NCBI GenBank assembly: GCA_016176465.1
Contig: JACOXD010000004.1
Location: 1-50,118 of the forward strand
Direction: 5' to 3'
DNA length: 50,118 nt
Origin: Candidatus Daviesbacteria bacterium
GTDB lineage: Bacteria > Patescibacteriota > Microgenomatia > Daviesbacterales > UBA10151
Below the pieces are notes generated by a model. The model was not told the DNA's origin, searched no databases, and saw only the letters and a list, made by a program, of their open reading frames with translations. Shown piece after piece: positions 36,333-47,383 of the stretch. Numbering within the stretch: position 1 is the stretch's first letter; every line of letters begins with the position of its first letter. The position numbers and the translations under genes are program-made.

Positions 36333-37497
<1,165 letters not shown>

Positions 37498-37594
37498 TCA
37501 AAGAATATTACCCTACTCAATAGAAATACAAAAAAATAATCATAGGTTATCTGGGAGGCATCGATTTTACTAATCAACCATCATTAATTGCTAA

Positions 37595-38131
37595 CTATAC
37601 TTCTAGAAGCTTTTCAAGATCTGTAGGTGCATCTGTAGGAATTGGTTCAAGAGCTGGGGGTTTTATGACTTCTCCTCTCTTTATAAGGTAAAGTATATTT
37701 GTCTCATTTAAATAGGTTAATCTTGCTCTCTCATTATCTTGCATTTGGAATAAATTAGCTATATCACCTTCTCTAGGCATGAGGATAAAAGAAGCTGCTG
37801 AAGGGTCAAACCTACTAGCTCTGATTATCCTTACATAAGCCCCAACTCCATCCTGATCTGCAGCTACTATAAGTGATTGTCTCATCTTGTAGGTTTTTAA
37901 AAGATAAGCACACCAATCTCCCGGACTAAACTCTCTCATTTGATGATACATGCTCTTAACATCTGGTCTTGAAGTTTCTCCTACTTTATTTCTTGCCCAA
38001 GGTTGTAATTTGCTTAGCTGAATTCTATGTCCAGTAAGTTGATCCTCTACAACCTGAAATTCTAACCTTTGTGACAAGGTATCTACTGGTAAACTAAATA
38101 ATTCTTCAGTTCTTGCTTCTGGCGTTGCCAT
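37595..38131 (-). CDS. unknown protein, last gene of helicase operon
   Basis: 178 residues, soluble, no signal peptide or membrane segment. Parts that look structured are WCAYLLKTYKMRQSLIVAAD near 73 and ASFILMPREGDIANLFQMQD near 113. The extreme C-terminus APTDLEKLLEV closely matches the end of the 1205-residue protein of the same operon (TPTDLERLLEL). I do not recognise the family. It starts 7 bp after the helicase gene, so it belongs to that operon. Confidence 0.75.
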   Translation of the reverse strand: MATPEARTEELFSLPVDTLSQRLEFQVVEDQLTGHRIQLSKLQPWARNKVGETSRPDVKSMYHQMREFSPGDWCAYLLKTYKMRQSLIVAADQDGVGAYVRIIRASRFDPSAASFILMPREGDIANLFQMQDNERARLTYLNETNILYLIKRGEVIKPPALEPIPTDAPTDLEKLLEV

Positions 38132-38138
38132 ATTCTTA

Positions 38139-41100
38139 TTAGCTTTCGGTTCCTCTCCTTAACCTTCTATTTAGCTCTGAACCAATCAACCTTTGAACAG
38201 ATGCTTCATCCCATTCCTCTATCTTATGTAACCCTCTTCTTGCAATTATACCAGCCAGGATCTCTTCAGATTCTTCATAATTTCTCCCCAAGCTAGTTTC
38301 TATTCTTCTTCTTGCTGCAATCCAAATTCTTCTATTACCTTGATTGAGGTTTGGCTTAATCTCATCTACCATTTCCCTAGGAGAAAGTAATAATATACCA
38401 TCTACGGTTGGACTACTAATTTCAGTCGTTTGTTGTGTAAGGGGATTTTCTACCTTGAAACGCTTTGAGGAAAAGATAGGATATTCAACTTTAACTACTG
38501 TTTGCTTACCATTTTTCTTACCCTTATATTTGCTAATTCTGGTTTCTTCATCACTTAATAAGCTCAAGTCTTCACTATTAAATCCAGCCAAATTAGGCTG
38601 ATTTGTCTTTTGAACTGTTATTATCCATCCAATTCTTTTAAAAGGTTTAATGTCTGTGGCATAAGAGACTCCTGAGTGTTCTTCAAGTATTGTAAAACCA
38701 AAATGCTTAGTTAAGCTTTCTGCAAATAGCCTAAATCTCTCTTCATCAAAACTACTTTCTGGAAAACTTAATACAACTGATCCTCCCATTTTTAAAACTC
38801 TGTTTATTTCAATTAATGCTTTTACCCTTTCCAACTGGGTAGGATCTTGGTGACTCCCGTTGCCCTCAGAAACTAATTTTGTCCAAGGCAACATAAAGGA
38901 ACAATCTATAGCATCATACCTTTCAGTATCTAAATCTAGCTGAGATGCTCTACCAACCATAATATTGCCCACCTGAGGAAATCTTTCCTGAGCTACTCTT
39001 AAAGCCGATCCATTGATATCTAAATTATCAATTTCTGCCTCATATCCTGCTTGGGCAACTTTTCTAGCGAATAAACAGGTACCAGCCCCTATAGATAAGA
39101 TTCTTCTAGGATGAGTTCTTAAGAGTACATTTTTCATTAGTTCTGCATTATTACCTACTATCCTAAACTCATCTCTTCCCTCATCAAAATAGAACTCTGC
39201 AAATAGTTCATAAAATGTTTTACCATTCCTTTCTTGAGAAAGCTGTTCTGTTGTTTCTTGCTCTCCAGCACCTTTAAGTCTTCTAACAATGTCTTGCAAA
39301 AATAGTTGCCCCACAGTCGGTTCTACTAAGAGTATCCTTCTAGCAGCTGTAGCTTCATTGAAGAATGCCTGATCTTCTGGGTCAAGTTCTACTCCCGCTA
39401 GAGCAATTTGTGCTAGGAAATCTTTTCTCCTAACCACATCATAGAATCCTTGGTCTATGGAGTTTTCAGATTCAAATACCATAACTTCCATAGGTTTGGC
39501 TTGACCAGGACGCAAGAACCTTCCCGCCATTTGTTTATATTCATCCCAACCCCAAGGCCAAAATGGGAACACTAAAGTTCCTCTTCTAATATTTCTATTC
39601 TGTTCTGTATCTCTAATTGCCCAGTCCATACTTTCATACACTGATTCCATATCAGCTACTACAAAATTATTTCTAAGACCATCTATTCTCCAAACTTGAG
39701 CAGCTTTATCTCTAGCATAAAAGCTTCTATCACCATCAATATTTATAGCCATCCCATTAAGTAAACCAGGTAACCAATCAGAGACTAAATACTCATAAAG
39801 ACTTAAAGCATTATCTGCTAAATCTTCATCTCGAGTATTTGGATCATCTAGGTTACGAGTGATACCTCTTTTGTGATAAGGAACTGCGATAAAAACTTGT
39901 TCTTCTGGTACAAAGCCTTCTACAACCACACCTCTTGCATCCTTCTGCGCACGTTGCTCTATAAATTCCTTCATAGCTAAATACTTTGAAGAAACTGCAC
40001 CTTTTGGTTTCCAATCCTGAGCTGTCAGTGTATTACTTTTTGCCAAGCTTTCCACACCCTCTACTAAACTATCCTCAAATAAACATTGGATTAAAAACTC
40101 TGCGTCACCAAATTTAGCTATCCAATCAGCACTAAATGGCTCATCTGGAATTGATGGGTCTTTTTGTACAGACCAAGTTGTCCAAGCATCATGTAACTCT
40201 ACTAATCTAGTTTGTAGACCTGCTACTCTTTCATATACAGGTGTTGGGACTAAACCTCTTTCCTGACATACCTTTTTAATTAGCTCAGGATTTAATAAAA
40301 CGCTTCTTAAGAGCCTCACCTTAGCTAGTGTCCCTATCTGTAAATTAGCTATCCATTCATATAGAACTCTCTCTGATGGGCTCATTGGTATAGCTTTTCT
40401 AGGATTTTCTGGTAGCTTGGGAGCTTTATCTCCAAATAAATCTTCCAATGTCCATTGAATCATTAGCTGCTCTCCATAAAGAAGAGAAAATGCCACTTTT
40501 GGATCTTTCAAAGCTTGAACACTAAAGGGAACCTTTCCATCCTCAACCCTTCTAGGAAGGGCAAACCTTTCAGGGTAAAGTAAGGCTAAAGTTATATCTA
40601 AATCAGCTAAAGAAGAGGCAATTGGTGTAGCTGTTAAAGCTACCATAGGAGTATTAATAATACCCCTTCTTTCTTGGTTTTCTCTGATTTGTGTTACCAA
40701 ATCAGCGATCATTCTGCTTCTTTGAGCACTTTCTTTTCTAAACTCATCTGATTCATCAAAAATTACTCCATTAGTTTGTCTCCTAGTTACTAAGGCGTTA
40801 TGAATTCTATGATAAAGCGCAGGATTATTCCAAGCTCTTCCTAGCAACTCACTGCCGATATAAACATATTCTGCTGTTTCAACCCTTGGATCCTCCAAAT
40901 TTCTTGCTTCTCTAATAGTAAAAACATCTCTTTTGACATCCTCTCTAAATATTTTAGCTGCTTCTCTTGGCCAAGTATTTCTAGCTCTGGCTGGACCAAA
41001 AATAGTTACTCTAACTTGATTTTCCCTTTCACTATCCACCTCAACCCAATTTTCTGCTAAAGTTCCCTGCGCTAAAGCTGTCTCCATAGCCAAGAAAGCA

Positions 41101-42080
41101 CAAGCAGTCTTTGTTGCACCAGTATCACCATTTAGTAGCTTTCTTCTAGTTTTTAAAAATTCATACACAAAATATTTTTGTCTAAATAAAGGAAACGGTG
41201 ACTCATCAGAAAACCAACCTTCTACAACATCCTTAAAAACAGGAGGGATCCTTACATATTGAATCTGTCTAAACTCTTGATAGACTATTTCCAAAAATTC
41301 TCTCCTTATTTGGGAAGTTTCTTTAGTAATAGCTTGTTGTAACTTGGTAAAACCTTCATCCTCTGACTCAATAAACATCCCCATTGCTTGGTTTACCAGA
41401 TAGTTTCTAACAATATTTAAAGTTGCAGCATCAGGGTTTCTAAATATTTCTTCTGGAACAAGTGATACTAAATCCCTAAATTCTATTTCACCCTTACCTC
41501 TATGAATCTCCAAATCTCTTAAGTAAGGTCTTAGCAAAGGTCGAGTTGTATAGGATCTAAGTTTTTCTCTTTTTTTCTCATCAACTGCATCTTGGAAGAG
41601 TAAAGCATAAGTTATAGCACCTAAAACTGGTACAGGAAGCACTGTTCTAAGTTGTTTTAAGCGCTCATCTCTATCTACAAACCTAACCACCTCTTCATCT
41701 GCTTCTTGAGCTTCTTTAGAATCTGGTTGTATAACTCCTTTTTGTATTAAAAGAATACTCAACTTATCTCTAAGTTTTTTTGCTTCAGGAGAGACTGCTT
41801 GGTGGGGTAGCAGAAAGCTTTTTAAAAGCTGGTCTTGTCTTGGGTATCGACCATCTTCAATCAGAGAATAAGCAATTGTGTATTTTAATTCATAGTTCAA
41901 ATCTCTAGCATACTGATCTTCAAAAGGATCTCTTAAAGGATTTGCAGGGTCAGAAGGGTTCAGTATTACTTCTACTGCACGCGGTGATAGTGCATGTTTA
42001 GGCTCCAGATCCAATCCTACAGTAGCACCATTTGCTTCTTGACCTATACCTTCTTGTGTCTCTACTGCTTCAGTTCTCAT
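38139..42080 (-). CDS. SNF2-like helicase fused to methyltransferase
   Basis: 1313 residues. An N-terminal unknown region (1-300) is followed by a superfamily 2 helicase core: degenerate Walker A LNGDTGATKT (316-325), Walker B VIFDESDEF (439-447), motif III ALTATPI (481-487) and the second-lobe motif YKQMAGRFLRPGQAKPMEV (848-866), whose Q-x-x-GRxxRxGQ form is SNF2-like. A class I SAM methyltransferase domain follows (about 975-1160): motif I ILSIGAGTCLFA at 994, LDIN at 1020, DAIDCSFMLPW at 1056, and a C-terminal helical region. Substrate unknown. Such fusions occur in defence and DNA-modification loci, but this one I cannot place. Confidence 0.8.
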   Translation of the reverse strand: MRTEAVETQEGIGQEANGATVGLDLEPKHALSPRAVEVILNPSDPANPLRDPFEDQYARDLNYELKYTIAYSLIEDGRYPRQDQLLKSFLLPHQAVSPEAKKLRDKLSILLIQKGVIQPDSKEAQEADEEVVRFVDRDERLKQLRTVLPVPVLGAITYALLFQDAVDEKKREKLRSYTTRPLLRPYLRDLEIHRGKGEIEFRDLVSLVPEEIFRNPDAATLNIVRNYLVNQAMGMFIESEDEGFTKLQQAITKETSQIRREFLEIVYQEFRQIQYVRIPPVFKDVVEGWFSDESPFPLFRQKYFVYEFLKTRRKLLNGDTGATKTACAFLAMETALAQGTLAENWVEVDSERENQVRVTIFGPARARNTWPREAAKIFREDVKRDVFTIREARNLEDPRVETAEYVYIGSELLGRAWNNPALYHRIHNALVTRRQTNGVIFDESDEFRKESAQRSRMIADLVTQIRENQERRGIINTPMVALTATPIASSLADLDITLALLYPERFALPRRVEDGKVPFSVQALKDPKVAFSLLYGEQLMIQWTLEDLFGDKAPKLPENPRKAIPMSPSERVLYEWIANLQIGTLAKVRLLRSVLLNPELIKKVCQERGLVPTPVYERVAGLQTRLVELHDAWTTWSVQKDPSIPDEPFSADWIAKFGDAEFLIQCLFEDSLVEGVESLAKSNTLTAQDWKPKGAVSSKYLAMKEFIEQRAQKDARGVVVEGFVPEEQVFIAVPYHKRGITRNLDDPNTRDEDLADNALSLYEYLVSDWLPGLLNGMAINIDGDRSFYARDKAAQVWRIDGLRNNFVVADMESVYESMDWAIRDTEQNRNIRRGTLVFPFWPWGWDEYKQMAGRFLRPGQAKPMEVMVFESENSIDQGFYDVVRRKDFLAQIALAGVELDPEDQAFFNEATAARRILLVEPTVGQLFLQDIVRRLKGAGEQETTEQLSQERNGKTFYELFAEFYFDEGRDEFRIVGNNAELMKNVLLRTHPRRILSIGAGTCLFARKVAQAGYEAEIDNLDINGSALRVAQERFPQVGNIMVGRASQLDLDTERYDAIDCSFMLPWTKLVSEGNGSHQDPTQLERVKALIEINRVLKMGGSVVLSFPESSFDEERFRLFAESLTKHFGFTILEEHSGVSYATDIKPFKRIGWIITVQKTNQPNLAGFNSEDLSLLSDEETRISKYKGKKNGKQTVVKVEYPIFSSKRFKVENPLTQQTTEISSPTVDGILLLSPREMVDEIKPNLNQGNRRIWIAARRRIETSLGRNYEESEEILAGIIARRGLHKIEEWDEASVQRLIGSELNRRLRRGTES

Positions 42081-42081
42081 A

Positions 42082-45000
42082 TTAGAGTTCTAATAACCTT
42101 TCTAAATCTGTTGGTGTAGTATTTAGATGCTCTGCCATTGACTTTAAATCCTGTACAAGCTGTTCTATTCCACCTGGATATTTTCTAACCACATTTTCTA
42201 GATCGTGTCTTTTTTCCTTCATTAAAATGTAGGGAGTAACATTACCATACTGTAAAAAGTAAGGTAGTGCTGCCTCTCTAACTCTTTCTGGTTTCCAATA
42301 TCCTTGAGGACGTTGCTCTCTTAGTAAAGAGAGACCAAGTTTCAGCCTTATTCCCTCACTACCTCCTGGGTAATATTGAGTTATGGCCATTCCCAAACCG
42401 GATAAGCCTGCTTTTTTCAAGTTTTTTTGACTATAGTGATTACCTGCTTGGACAAACCTCATTATTTGTTGTTCAATTACTGCTTTTATTCTTTCTGAAT
42501 CCTCAGCTAATCTAGACCAGAAAATTCTTCCTCTTTCATCGACAGGAAGTCCTTCTTCATTCACGGTTAACCCTTTTCCTATGGTCCAACGAGGATGTAT
42601 TACTTGTCCCATATATTCTCTTAACCCTACTAGCCCTCCTGGATAATAGTGTTGCGCAGCATGGATTAAATCTCTTCTATAAGCAGCACCCAAGCTAGTT
42701 TGAGTTAATTCTCCTCCAGTAGCTATAAATTCCTGCGCTTCTCTTTCTATAAAAGCTTGTAATACTTCTGGTTGATCTTTTAACAAAGACCATCTAATTT
42801 TTCCTTCAAATAATAGAGTTTCACGAATAGCTTGGTAGTCTTCATCTTTTAACCATTGGCTAATATCTGGTTGAAGAACAGTAGGTCTTTCTCGTATACG
42901 ATGTTTTACTATTTCTACAATATTTAAGTCAGACAAGCCCAAGTTACCCTTATGTAATCTACGAGAAGTTAATAACTTTTGATTTCCATCCTCATCTTGA
43001 GAATAGATGTCAACCCAAGTTAAACCTTCTTCCTCATCATATCCAGGTTTAAAAACAAGTTGCTCTCCTACTCTAAAGGCTGAATCCCTAATCGTTACCA
43101 ACTTATTACCAACCCAACCTAATCTAATAAGGCCAGGGGAAACGACTTTAGCACTAAATTCCTGTAAATCGGCTGGGATTATAGCATCTTTACCATCCAA
43201 GTAATCCAGAAACCTTTGTCTCTCAGGGCCATACCAACGTCTGGTTTCTAATCTTCCCTCTTCTTGGTTTACTCTAAACGAACTAATAAGATTATCCATA
43301 TTTACTGCATTACCTTCTAAAATCTGATATATTTCAAGCCATTTATATCCTCCTTTTGTATCTTCTCTAGGAACTGCTAAAAACTCACCCTGCACCTCAT
43401 CTATATCTACTATTTCTTTAGTAAGATTCATTACTTTAATCCCCAATTCTGAAGTCTGACCTAAATAAACTGTTCTGTATCTTCCAGAACCATAGAAACG
43501 ACTTAATACCGCAGGAGATATCTGATCAAAAGGTAACCCACCGCTAAAGTAGTTCATCATTTGCTCACAGAAAATTGATTGATGGCTAGCAGATACACTT
43601 TCTGTTCCTCTACTTTTTGCAGAAGATATTAAATTTATTGTTTTCTTGTCTAAAGCTTCACCATAGAGCATTCTTTCAAACTGTGCTCTATTGTATAAAG
43701 TTACCTCTCTATCAATTCTCCCCCTAGCTCTTATAGAACTTACACCTTCTACATGTGCTGTTACTGTACCTATTGCAACTTGATATTCTTTAGCTAGATC
43801 TTGAGCCATAGCCCATTCTCCTGCTTGGTCAGTATATCTTCCGGTTTCTGGATCAACTTTTAGTAGAGATAAAAAATCTTGCAGTATTCTCTTAGCTTCT
43901 TCAGCACTATATAAAGTTGTCCTTCGACCATTGCTTCTTCCTGCCATAGAGGGAATACCTTCTAGTCTGTTAGTTATAACTTCAGGGATTAAACCAGTTT
44001 CATCGGTTAAAGCAGGAAGGCTAATCCATTGCCTTTCCTCATCTTCAAAAATACCTGTTTCAGGATCTACTGTTGGAAGAAGTACTTCAGTCATAACTCT
44101 ACCCACATCAGCAAGATTGTAGAGCATAGAGGCGCTTTTAGTTCTATATTCTATTTTTCTTATACTATCAAGGCTATCAGCCACCTCAGCTGAATTACCA
44201 TACTTAGAATGGATATAATATAGAGAAACCCATGCCTCATTTTTTTTATCTTTATATATTCCAGTATCTTTATCATAAGTAAGACCATCTCGTTGAAAAA
44301 ATATCTCCTCAAGCTTAAATAATCTATGCTTAAGATCAAACCGATATCTTCCTAAAAGTACTTCATCTTTAGCTAACAGGAAATCAGCATATTCTTTTGT
44401 AGAACCATCTGGTACTAATGACAAATGATCTCCTTCCTGAAGACCAAATTTTTGAGACAGAACTATATAAGTTTTTTTATATTTTTCTCTCCAAAGGGAC
44501 AAAAGGTCTGTCGTCGCTCTTACCAATGGCACAGGTACTAGTTCATCAAACCCAACCTCACCATGAGCATAATCTTTTAGGAGCTGCATTTCTGGACCCT
44601 GCCAGCTTTTATTTTCAATTCTACCTTCAATTACCCTACCACTAGAAATATATTCCCCTTGTGGTTCTCCTGTTAAGGGATCTACCTTATATAATTCCAA
44701 CCATCGATATCTTCTTCTAGTATCATGTCTAGGCACTAAAACAACTTCAGTTTGAGATACGACTTCTCCAAAGGGAAAATAGAAAGATAATTGTTTACCG
44801 TTTAACACACCTAAATTAATAGCTTCATCATTTTTAGTAATAGCTCTTATTGGACGTAAATCTTCGAAAACTATATCGTGGTTACCTGACAAATGATCTA
44901 ATAGAAGCTGTCTTTCATAGCCAAACCAATTTTTTGTTGAAAATCTATGCTCTTGTGGAAACATTCTATAAGAAGTTACCAGTGGCCACCTCTCTTTTGA

Positions 45001-45699
45001 TAAATCTTGACTTTCTTTTAATATATCTACCCATTCATATCCTGGAATTTCACCTTTTTTGGGAATAAATCTAAATATATCTTCATCCTCAACCAACCTA
45101 TTTTCATATATGCTAATAATAAATCTGCTATCTGCCCCCAGTCTGTAATTTGCTAAAGAAATTTTTTGTTTGACATAAAGCACAAATGGGAGTAAATCAT
45201 CAAAGGTAATACCATTTGCCCCTACCAAATAATCTGCAATAAGTTGTTCTCCTAAATTATGCCATTCTTGGAAATCAATTCTACTACTAGACTCTCCAGG
45301 CATCAGCCTACAAGCGCTAGCAGGGAATTTTTCCAATCCAGAATCTCGTGGTCCATATACATAAAAATTTAACCAGAAATATGGATTTATTCCTCTCGTA
45401 GATTGGTTAGGAACTACATAAAGTGAACTTAATCCGCTCTCAATATATTGGGAATCAATACCTAAACGAAGGTATATATTTACTCCATAATCTCTACCAA
45501 GATAGAATTGAAACCTAGTTGTACCTCTTCCGTGAGCTCGGCCTGCCAAGTCTAGAGTGAAAGGAGAAACTTGGCTAAAAGTTGTTTCTCCGATTAAAAA
45601 ACAATAAAGACCGTCAAGCCCTTCTTTTTGAGAGGCGAATTTAACCCCCTCATATTTATTAATTTCTTCTTGAGTTATACCTCGGGGAACCTCGCTCAT
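42082..45699 (-). CDS. 1205-residue multi-repeat protein
   Basis: No known family. Three repeat classes are visible. Class 1, about 105 residues, some five units (about 30-170, 171-283, 284-390, 710-845 and a half unit to 915), with Y-x-W-L/V-E/D-x-Y then W-x-G-P/Y-E-x-Q-x-L-x-D-Y-L-x-G and F-D-D-L-x-P. Class 2, about 68 residues, three units (472-537, 543-607, 614-678): VDPETG, a Trp, then TLYN, like winged-helix modules. Class 3, three C-terminal units with YPGG (1018, 1109, 1174), resembling the short DNA-binding repeats linked to homing endonucleases. The helicase gene starts 1 bp later. No signal peptide. Confidence 0.8.
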   Translation of the reverse strand: MSEVPRGITQEEINKYEGVKFASQKEGLDGLYCFLIGETTFSQVSPFTLDLAGRAHGRGTTRFQFYLGRDYGVNIYLRLGIDSQYIESGLSSLYVVPNQSTRGINPYFWLNFYVYGPRDSGLEKFPASACRLMPGESSSRIDFQEWHNLGEQLIADYLVGANGITFDDLLPFVLYVKQKISLANYRLGADSRFIISIYENRLVEDEDIFRFIPKKGEIPGYEWVDILKESQDLSKERWPLVTSYRMFPQEHRFSTKNWFGYERQLLLDHLSGNHDIVFEDLRPIRAITKNDEAINLGVLNGKQLSFYFPFGEVVSQTEVVLVPRHDTRRRYRWLELYKVDPLTGEPQGEYISSGRVIEGRIENKSWQGPEMQLLKDYAHGEVGFDELVPVPLVRATTDLLSLWREKYKKTYIVLSQKFGLQEGDHLSLVPDGSTKEYADFLLAKDEVLLGRYRFDLKHRLFKLEEIFFQRDGLTYDKDTGIYKDKKNEAWVSLYYIHSKYGNSAEVADSLDSIRKIEYRTKSASMLYNLADVGRVMTEVLLPTVDPETGIFEDEERQWISLPALTDETGLIPEVITNRLEGIPSMAGRSNGRRTTLYSAEEAKRILQDFLSLLKVDPETGRYTDQAGEWAMAQDLAKEYQVAIGTVTAHVEGVSSIRARGRIDREVTLYNRAQFERMLYGEALDKKTINLISSAKSRGTESVSASHQSIFCEQMMNYFSGGLPFDQISPAVLSRFYGSGRYRTVYLGQTSELGIKVMNLTKEIVDIDEVQGEFLAVPREDTKGGYKWLEIYQILEGNAVNMDNLISSFRVNQEEGRLETRRWYGPERQRFLDYLDGKDAIIPADLQEFSAKVVSPGLIRLGWVGNKLVTIRDSAFRVGEQLVFKPGYDEEEGLTWVDIYSQDEDGNQKLLTSRRLHKGNLGLSDLNIVEIVKHRIRERPTVLQPDISQWLKDEDYQAIRETLLFEGKIRWSLLKDQPEVLQAFIEREAQEFIATGGELTQTSLGAAYRRDLIHAAQHYYPGGLVGLREYMGQVIHPRWTIGKGLTVNEEGLPVDERGRIFWSRLAEDSERIKAVIEQQIMRFVQAGNHYSQKNLKKAGLSGLGMAITQYYPGGSEGIRLKLGLSLLREQRPQGYWKPERVREAALPYFLQYGNVTPYILMKEKRHDLENVVRKYPGGIEQLVQDLKSMAEHLNTTPTDLERLLEL

Positions 45700-45710
45700 A
45701 ATTTAAGCGA

Positions 45711-45739
45711 ATTATAGCATAACTACCCTATAGCTTAAA
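45711..45739 (-). promoter_or_regulatory. promoter of the helicase operon
   Basis: Extended -10 TGC-TATAAT with TTTAAG 17 bp upstream (poor -35). The -10 ends 11 nt before the ATG, so the leader is about 5 nt. Confidence 0.55.
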
Positions 45740-45762
45740 TTAAATGGTTTAAAAAGGTAACG

Positions 45763-46551
45763 TTAAGCTTTTTGAGCAAGGACAGTAATCATCCCAGATT
45801 TTTGAGCTGGTTCCATAGGATGAATAGCTAAATCATCTTCTCCATACATAATATTTTTCAGCCCTATTTTTGGCATAACTTCACTATGAGCTACTCTCAT
45901 CCCTTTTGATAAAACTTGAGCTAGTAGTTCGGTAGGTTTTAAGTAGAGATGTGGTTCTAATTCAGGCTGCCCGGAACACCCACACCAATCCCAGTAGGCT
46001 TCCTCACTTATCTGAACTTCTGGATCAAAAGAGGCAGCTTCTTTGAAGCTCTTAAAATTATCATCTTCCTGTCCAGAAGTTCTTAACCAAAGATATCCCC
46101 CTCTTTTAGTTGCGTCAATAGCTCTATCTAAAACTGCAAACGCTTCTTGTTTTTCAGCAAAGTGTACAAAAAGTTGACCCATCATAACTACATCATATCT
46201 ATTACTTCCAAAATCTGCTTCATTAAAATCAGTGAAATCAACTGATATAGCTAATCTATAAGCTTTAGCAATTTTTGTTAAATGTTGAGCATAGGGGTTG
46301 CCAACTCTCTCTATACCTCGCACTTGCATTCCGTGTAAAGCAAAAAACATACTGGCCCTTCCCGCTCCAATTCCTAAATCTAAAACTGTCCCCTCTCTTT
46401 GCAATAAACTATCACTAAATTTCCAAATCTCTGGATCTCCTACAAAAAATGGCCAACCCTTTTCTTGGCCATTATGAATCATTCCTTCAAAAAGCTGGCG
46501 GGAGACTTTATTTAATTTTCCTTTTGATAGCAAAATTAGTTTTTCGTTCAT
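45763..46551 (-). CDS. class I SAM-dependent methyltransferase
   Basis: 262 residues. Motif I VLDLGIGAGRASMFFALHG near 55-73, acidic motif II region GIERVG near 78, DVVMMGQLFVHFAEKQEAFA near 119 (post-I/IV) and a later beta strand GGYLWLRTS near 151. A CGCSG cluster near 190 is unusual. The family is broad (small molecule, lipid or protein methylation), so the substrate is unknown. It has its own promoter and ends 63 bp before the helicase operon. Association with that operon is by position only. Confidence 0.8.
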   Translation of the reverse strand: MNEKLILLSKGKLNKVSRQLFEGMIHNGQEKGWPFFVGDPEIWKFSDSLLQREGTVLDLGIGAGRASMFFALHGMQVRGIERVGNPYAQHLTKIAKAYRLAISVDFTDFNEADFGSNRYDVVMMGQLFVHFAEKQEAFAVLDRAIDATKRGGYLWLRTSGQEDDNFKSFKEAASFDPEVQISEEAYWDWCGCSGQPELEPHLYLKPTELLAQVLSKGMRVAHSEVMPKIGLKNIMYGEDDLAIHPMEPAQKSGMITVLAQKA

Positions 46552-46565
46552 AAAATGATTGCAGA

Positions 46566-46594
46566 ATTCTAGCAGATTAATATCGCTTAATCAA
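46566..46594 (-). promoter_or_regulatory. methyltransferase promoter
   Basis: TTGATT, 17 bp, TAGAAT with TGC before the -10. The -10 ends 14 nt from the ATG, giving a leader of about 8 nt. The rest of 46552-46736 is AT-rich with no gene. Confidence 0.6.
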
Positions 46595-46736
46595 ACATTA
46601 TGGGGCAAATTTTACTTAGATATGATTAAAAAGATAAAAAATTTTGCCAATTATAGCTTTTTTTCTATTAATCCAAAATACCTTGAATCTCTGCTTTTGT
46701 TTTTTTACTCACCCTACAAAATAGTTATCTTTATAG

Positions 46737-47144
46737 TTATCTTTTTCTTAATTTTATGGAATGATCTTTTAACCACTTAGAAATTTGTTCAATTAATAAA
46801 TGCTGGTTATCCACTGCTACAGCAAACTCCACTTCTTCTTGATGATTGTTAACTAACTTATATCCATTTATTTTTAAAAATAAACCGGCTGAGGTTAAAG
46901 CTGTACGTTTGTTGCCATCAACGAACGGATGATTTTTTAAAAGTGATTGAAGAAGGGCTGCTGCCATATCAAAAAGATTGGAATATAAATCTTGTCCATC
47001 AAAGCTAGATTGAGGTCTTGCGACAGCAGATTCAACAAGCCCTAGGTCTCTTATTCCCAAAGATCCCCCAAACCTTTTTACCATTTGGTCATGGATTAGC
47101 AAAACCTGGGCAACACTTAGAAAATATAGTTTCTTAGTAGTCAC
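46737..47144 (-). CDS. doc: Doc-type Fic toxin
   Basis: 135 residues. The Fic/Doc motif HPFVDGNKRTALTSAG near 72 matches the Doc form HxFxDxNKR, which phosphorylates EF-Tu in phage P1 Doc, whereas AMPylating Fic proteins carry HPFxxGNGR. The N-terminal region LIHDQMVKRFGGSLGIRDLG also fits the death-on-curing family. It starts GTG overlapping the antitoxin TGA by 4 bp. Target here not shown. Confidence 0.88.
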   Translation of the reverse strand: MTTKKLYFLSVAQVLLIHDQMVKRFGGSLGIRDLGLVESAVARPQSSFDGQDLYSNLFDMAAALLQSLLKNHPFVDGNKRTALTSAGLFLKINGYKLVNNHQEEVEFAVAVDNQHLLIEQISKWLKDHSIKLRKR

Positions 47145-47383
47145 CTTTTGGAGAGTTCTTCTAATACATCTTTATGGTCTTCAATAAACTCATCAACCAT
47201 TTTCGTAAATTTGTGATCTACCCCAGGAGCAAGAGTTTTTTTTTGAGGGGTAACTACTAATTCGTTACCTTCTTTTTTAACTACCACTAAAGAACCATCC
47301 CTTAAATTAAGTTCTTTCATAAGCTCTTTGGGGATAGTCACAGCCACAGAATTACCGTTTTTGTAAAGTTTTTGGGGTTGCAT
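47141..47383 (-). CDS. AbrB/MazE-type antitoxin
   Basis: 80 residues. The N-terminal swapped-hairpin AbrB fold shows KLYKNGNSVAVTIPKELMKE near 5 and LRDGSLVVVKKEGNELVVTP near 27, as in MazE and SpoVT-like DNA-binding proteins. The C-terminal half (about 53-80) is the likely toxin-binding helix. Pairing an AbrB fold antitoxin with Doc rather than Phd is a known but less common mix. Its promoter contains two direct repeats that may be operators. Confidence 0.85.
   Translation of the reverse strand: MQPQKLYKNGNSVAVTIPKELMKELNLRDGSLVVVKKEGNELVVTPQKKTLAPGVDHKFTKMVDEFIEDHKDVLEELSKR

Follow-up and report, generated by a model that had tools for sequence, protein, structure and literature searches.

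Loci that place an SNF2 helicase together with a methyltransferase have been described among the bacteriophage exclusion (BREX)-related types carrying the SNF2-like protein BrxHII, which also feature tandem helix-turn-helix (HTH)-like recognition modules (PMC12839542). DNA glycosylases have been reported in genome conflict as well: restriction glycosylases of the PabI family pair with a methyltransferase (PMC10273834), and Brig1 is a glycosylase serving defence (PMC11078745). Here we describe an island that shares features with both, found in a stretch of 50,118 nucleotides (the window: contig JACOXD010000004.1, positions 1 to 50,118) from a very small, uncultured Candidatus Daviesbacteria bacterium (Patescibacteria, class Microgenomatia; GCA_016176465.1). 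Three of its genes form an operon and encode a modular repeat-array protein (P0003, the adaptor), an SNF2 ATPase fused to a class-I methyltransferase (P0002, the hub) and a small protein (P0001) that is, by profile comparison, a remote homologue of alkyladenine DNA glycosylase (AAG, also called MPG); a fourth gene (P0004) encodes a separate methyltransferase (Table 1). P0003 and P0001 end in the same short peptide. We judge the chances slightly better than even that these proteins form a modular DNA-targeting complex acting in genome conflict, in which interchangeable readers dock through the shared C-terminal peptide on a translocase-methyltransferase and its AAG-like reader.

The island differs from the BREX-related loci in that it has no PglZ, BrxC, BrxL, nuclease or N6-adenine methylase, and in that its methyltransferase and SNF2 motor form a single protein; in turn, neither an AAG-like protein nor shared C-terminal tails are found in the available part of the BREX account (PMC12839542). 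In a PADLOC scan the BREX set (PglZ, BrxC, PglX) was absent and a similarity to the mad2 methyltransferase was all that was returned; from the mad1-8 set of the methylation-associated defence system (MADS), this generic methyltransferase stretch of mad2 alone aligns, to P0002 and P0004. Neither PADLOC nor Pfam gave any match in the island to the set of the defence island system associated with restriction-modification (DISARM), namely the drmA helicase, drmB (DUF1998), drmC (PLD) and the DNA methylase. Type I restriction-modification resembles the island only in its way of working, as exchangeable recognition proteins (HsdS) are placed there on a common motor/methyltransferase core. The island is set apart from type I and type ISP systems alike, since no nuclease domain was found by Pfam and NCBIfam scans and the N6-adenine motif NPPY is missing, and its putative specificity proteins are of several unrelated repeat-array kinds. 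The likeness to PabI and Brig1 lies in glycosylase chemistry or fold serving genome conflict, whereas the fold expected here is that of AAG/MPG and not PabI HALFPIPE or Brig1, and the small protein is linked to an SNF2-methyltransferase and reader arrays. A literature search of partial coverage returned no system with such a gene set. The arrangement and its plug-in logic appear to be undescribed, while the parts belong to known superfamilies; what might be called categorically new is the arrangement, not a demonstrated function.

The four genes lie where the initial annotation had placed them, all on the minus strand, and the operon it proposed is borne out by spacers of 1 bp (P0003/P0002) and 7 bp (P0002/P0001). 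A full-length hub is present in 9 of 374 Microgenomatia genomes, weak hub-profile matches beyond these nine (mostly to the methyltransferase domain only) being left uncounted, and more distant forms occur outside the class. The small-protein gene comes next after the hub gene in 8/8 visible loci (the L065 contig ends at this point), and candidate adaptors, one to three locus-specific repeat-array proteins each, stand beside the hub in all nine. Wherever enough of a Microgenomatia locus is visible, it contains hub, small protein and adaptor(s) side by side. The outcome that had been set beforehand as contradicting the initial annotation, homologues scattered over genomes, was not what we saw; likewise, profile searches matched P0003 to no surface or metabolic family.

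The initial annotation had also read P0002 as an SNF2-like helicase-methyltransferase, and profile searches agree: the protein matches Methyltransf_11 (E 9e-10), and the profile of the hub family finds the SNF2 structure 1z63 (E 4e-26) and the methyltransferase 6uak (E 1.5e-7) in the PDB. The RecA-like core carries motifs I, II, III and VI together with the SNF2 profile match that defines this family; its ATPase residues K324, D442-E443, T485, Q850 and R854 are invariant in nine homologues, with a Walker A of atypical form (GDTGATKT) in the window protein. Equally invariant in the nine homologues are G1000 and D1021, the S-adenosylmethionine (SAM) residues of the methyltransferase. SNF2 motors work on double-stranded DNA, and we infer that P0002 is an SNF2-type translocase of double-stranded DNA fused to a SAM-dependent methyltransferase, with DNA as the substrate.

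The tail sharing noticed in the initial annotation proved real. The two window tails follow the pattern PTDLE[RK]LLE[LV] and score 43 against each other, a value that random tail pairs, with homologous genes kept in, reach in 7 of 60,000 cases (random mean 13), and the next-best C-terminus scores 20 against them (1117 open reading frames, 1.069 of 1.072 Mb read), so this tail is confined to two proteins of the genome, both of the same operon. Pairs with unrelated bodies sharing a tail occur in the window, L025, L026, L027 and L063, with scores of 38-56 (mean between loci, 17); in these pairs BLAST found no similarity of the bodies. The peptide itself is different in each case. Three repeat proteins of L024 end in NAQIEALLKD, three proteins of L025 with mutually unrelated bodies end in ADQWLDEMLR-like peptides (its small protein more weakly, scores 21-26), the small and about 720-aa proteins of L026/L027 end in EELxRxExEILxEL, and the L063 tails read TTEAANEWLQNLL and TTEQANQYIQGI; in L064 and L065 tails are common only to homologous repeat proteins. 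In most loci, many of the identical residues are encoded by different codons (4/8 in the window, 7/11 in L026), and it is thus the peptide that selection holds. Recent DNA duplication as the source of the similarity was rejected on these grounds for the window, L024, L026, L027 and L063, while the L025 tail codons are mostly identical and their similarity may have arisen in this way.

Such anatomy is what one would expect if a docking peptide had evolved together with a single, local receptor. The common amphipathic peptide would then act as a plug that brings proteins of unrelated bodies to one receptor, be it the N-terminal domain of the hub, the small protein, or the tail proteins themselves binding each other; in P0001 the tail follows a linker modelled with low confidence, which is probably disordered. 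It might be argued instead that the tail is a self-association helix or a degradation or localisation tag and that the proteins act separately, as the tails are generic amphipathic acidic helices and three small proteins have none. We find this rather unlikely, for the window tail is restricted to its operon, a homologue of another class has readers and hub in one protein (see below), and unrelated proteins change their tails together from locus to locus, which points to one local partner and not to a general degron. As a separate observation, two adjoining membrane-like paralogues of about 960 aa elsewhere in the data set (L113:9849-15583, minus strand) end in KWWEKEEED and SWWEKEEEA.

Kinship of the small protein with AAG/MPG went beyond the initial annotation, as did the recurrence of locus-specific tails across the family. 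P0001 by itself has no Pfam match, and the homology emerges at the profile level only. The bridge is L080 (genome G454), encoded by the gene after a hub, which matches PF02245 Pur_DNA_glyco (E 6.6e-5, under the Pfam cut-off) and also aligns to the small-protein profile. When the eight-member profile was compared with 16 ordinary MPGs, hhalign gave a probability of 95.3 and a score of 57.5, with 141 columns aligned colinearly. The best of 150 column-shuffled controls scored 18.6 and the reversed profile 13.1; each small-protein subclade alone scored 35-37 against MPGs. The aromatic residue that stacks on the base (W, F or Y) is kept in 9/9 system copies. The differences from ordinary MPGs are that the histidine of the AAG DxAxH motif is missing, that the catalytic glutamate is variable and that the gene stands in a hub operon and encodes a tail. 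This glutamate, the general base of AAG/MPG, is present in all 16 ordinary MPGs compared and in five of the nine system copies, the other four having Q (the window), Q, I and V.

Human AAG with the E125Q substitution binds DNA like the wild type and is inactive (PMC5363859). Because glutamine replaces the catalytic glutamate in the window P0001 as well, this protein probably reads bases and does not excise them; no other MPG was found in the window genome. P0001 probably flips out or senses a particular base. On the other hand, lineages that keep the glutamate might first produce an unusual methylated purine and then cut it out, leaving abasic sites in invader DNA, while the others use a dead reader, and the whole would amount to a new class of conflict machine; we put this forward tentatively, as an extension that is on balance unlikely.

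The repetitive nature of P0003, also claimed initially, was confirmed and resolved into a mosaic of u units of about 110 aa, four of them clear and two weak, and of three units each of the HTH-like h type and the YPGG type. The u units recur in the L025 and L066 adaptors and the YPGG units in L024, L025 and L064; the latter are present in 4 of 281 genomes of the class, every time at a hub locus, with no further occurrence among 172 genomes of the phylum. As repeat-unit searches include their own training genomes, the informative part of this count is the absence elsewhere. Neither P0003 nor its YPGG units gave anything significant in PDB, Pfam, PHROG and NCBIfam, and a match to the TALE-like BurrH (E 0.3) was discarded as chance-level. 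In a more distant hub homologue from another class (genome G594, L079:7672-11658), four HTH-like h units are fused N-terminally to the hub and no adaptor or small gene stands beside it, so that reader and engine are one protein; this Rosetta-stone fusion supports a reader-hub link. From the HTH-like architecture and the association with the hub, we infer that adaptor arrays bind DNA. P0003 would then be an exchangeable array that binds nucleic acid and selects the target, at which the hub would translocate and then methylate or remodel, the most likely outcome being that foreign or mobile DNA is marked, silenced or blocked. An RNA-directed machine, with arrays binding RNA and the methyltransferase modifying it, appears highly doubtful to us: some class-I methyltransferases of this shape do modify RNA, and the YPGG arrays are all-helical in the AlphaFold model, like RNA-binding helical repeats, but SNF2 motors act on double-stranded DNA and the fold of the AAG-like partner is that of a DNA-base enzyme.

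Comparison with the relative G010 revealed how the island is placed. There, the order is MazE, Fic, tgt (2 bp on) and rpoB and the island is absent; the window shares these flanks, and in it Fic and tgt stand 9.2 kb apart (a single relative was compared). Horizontal acquisition forms part of the reading that we favour. Recent acquisition as judged by base composition was unsupported, the island being ordinary in this respect (guanine-cytosine content 36.4% vs 34.9% in the genome, which has 1.07 Mb in 18 contigs and belongs to a family that includes Daviesbacteria genomes). A role in genome conflict is favoured by this clean insertion, by the patchy distribution and diverse readers, and by neighbours of AbiE, conjugation and Cas4-like type at some of the hub loci, as well as by the precedents of glycosylase defence (PMC11078745) and base-excision restriction (PMC10273834).

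The same insertion at an empty site would also suit a system that helps a mobile element against restriction or in transfer, one that travels with or acts on the element's own DNA so as to protect it and whose tail packages the proteins together. Phage P1 DarB is a large protein joining a methyltransferase and a helicase, and P0002 likewise joins the two. Moreover, the L026 hub locus (G044, L026:16670-18987) adjoins genes for a replication-relaxation protein and for a type IV secretion coupling ATPase of the TraG/TrwB type, which suggests that it lies within an integrated conjugative element, and the L024 hub locus has a serine recombinase some 8 kb away. We nevertheless consider a DarB-like helper distinctly unlikely, as capsid, packaging and integrase genes are absent from the island, no hub homologue was found in 50,697 phage records (tblastn), 72,556 plasmid records or IMG/VR, and L064, L065 and L066 sit amid housekeeping genes.

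Several observations weigh against the DNA-targeting complex that we favour, or against its role in defence. The weakest step is the substrate of the hub methyltransferase: its best family matches are BioC/UbiE, and it has neither motif IV (D/N/S)PP(Y/F/W), the region reading CSFMLPWTK / SMMLHWTD, nor the PC motif of cytosine methylases. By its motifs it thus falls outside the canonical methylases of DNA bases, and DNA methylation by P0002 is for these reasons conjectural. PADLOC recognises only the generic methyltransferase fold and no known defence effector, and with a non-canonical methyltransferase and no nuclease domain the defence role envisaged in the initial annotation stays putative. 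The absence of the hub from phage, plasmid and IMG/VR records counts here as well, and the AbiE genes near two loci are a raw neighbour count with no background rate. The small proteins of L024, L064 and L066 have no tail, L066 has no convincing shared tail at all, and genome G435 encodes a 514-aa h-like HTH-array protein (L201:9517-11061) with no hub nearby. Finally, AlphaFold models of P0001 (pLDDT, the predicted local distance difference test, 69) and of the YPGG module (pLDDT 71) are mediocre; these weak models matched no PDB fold, and no fold claim is built on them.

One could also imagine a host regulator or remodeller resembling RapA or Mot1, whose SNF2 motor strips proteins or polymerase at array-chosen sites and whose methyltransferase acts on protein. 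The hub SNF2 profile additionally matches RapA, and the BioC/UbiE-type fold and missing nuclease would fit; we hold this quite improbable, since patchiness (9/374) and fast-changing readers ill suit housekeeping and the AAG-like partner suggests base recognition. Patescibacterial genomes are small, each with fewer recognised defence systems than genomes of other lineages, and phages infect these bacteria intensely; one suggestion is that Patescibacteria may possess kinds of defence that escape present detection methods (PMC12259885), and the island is a concrete candidate for these. The combination of an SNF2-methyltransferase fusion, an AAG-fold reader and swappable arrays with a common peptide was not found in the literature searched, and arrays with a readable DNA code, if they have one, could serve as a modular DNA-recognition scaffold.

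Table 1. Features of the island, with positions counted from the first nucleotide of the window.
Feature	Position	Strand	Remark
Inserted segment between Fic and tgt	37498-46736	.	9.2 kb; comparison with relative G010
P0004, methyltransferase	45763-46551	-	262 aa
P0003, modular repeat-array adaptor (putative reader)	42082-45699	-	1205 aa
Two weak u units of P0003			residues 34-146 and 372-435
Two u units of P0003	44590-45249	-	residues 151-262, 263-370; iterated hidden Markov model
Three HTH-like h units of P0003	44083-44280, 43873-44073, 43660-43860	-	
Two further u units of P0003	42928-43569	-	residues 711-826, 827-924
Three YPGG units of P0003	42598-42765, 42328-42498, 42136-42312	-	predicted 4-helix repeats
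Shared tail of P0003	42085-42114	-	PTDLERLLEL
P0002, hub: N-terminal domain, SNF2 ATPase, class-I methyltransferase	38139-42080	-	1313 aa
SNF2 ATPase region of P0002	39411-41213	-	about residues 290-890
Methyltransferase core of P0002	38736-39113	-	about residues 990-1115
P0001, AAG/MPG-like small protein with tail	37595-38131	-	178 aa
Gln43 of P0001	38003-38005	-	at AAG catalytic Glu (human E125)
Trp45 of P0001	37997-37999	-	at base-stacking aromatic (human Y127)
Shared tail of P0001	37598-37627	-	PTDLEKLLEV

As to the surroundings of the operon, which the initial annotation had drawn on, P0004 sits inside the inserted segment, while the Doc pair is no part of the system. This Fic/Doc toxin and MazE-like antitoxin pair (window 46737-47383, minus strand) keeps the same position in G010, and because it adjoins tgt in that island-less relative it predates the island and was rejected as a component. 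P0004 is a class-I methyltransferase, TehB/UbiE-like and devoid of the shared tail; it was co-inserted, and its membership of the system is uncertain. In L063, a separate methyltransferase directly after the small gene and convergent with it (L063:13866-14960, minus strand) is reminiscent of P0004, and homology between the two was rejected as BLAST gave no match. In L066, a gene between those of AbiEii and the adaptor (L066:7244-8029) encodes a 261-aa protein that belongs to no known family and is possibly a further component. On the other flank of the island, tgt (queuine tRNA-guanine transglycosylase, window 36333-37497, minus strand) is broken by a frameshift: compared with G010, 17 nt are missing, and with them the TDSGG stretch of the conserved motif DSGGFQ. 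Intact copies are present in relatives, and the broken gene is either a young pseudogene adjoining the insertion or an assembly error.

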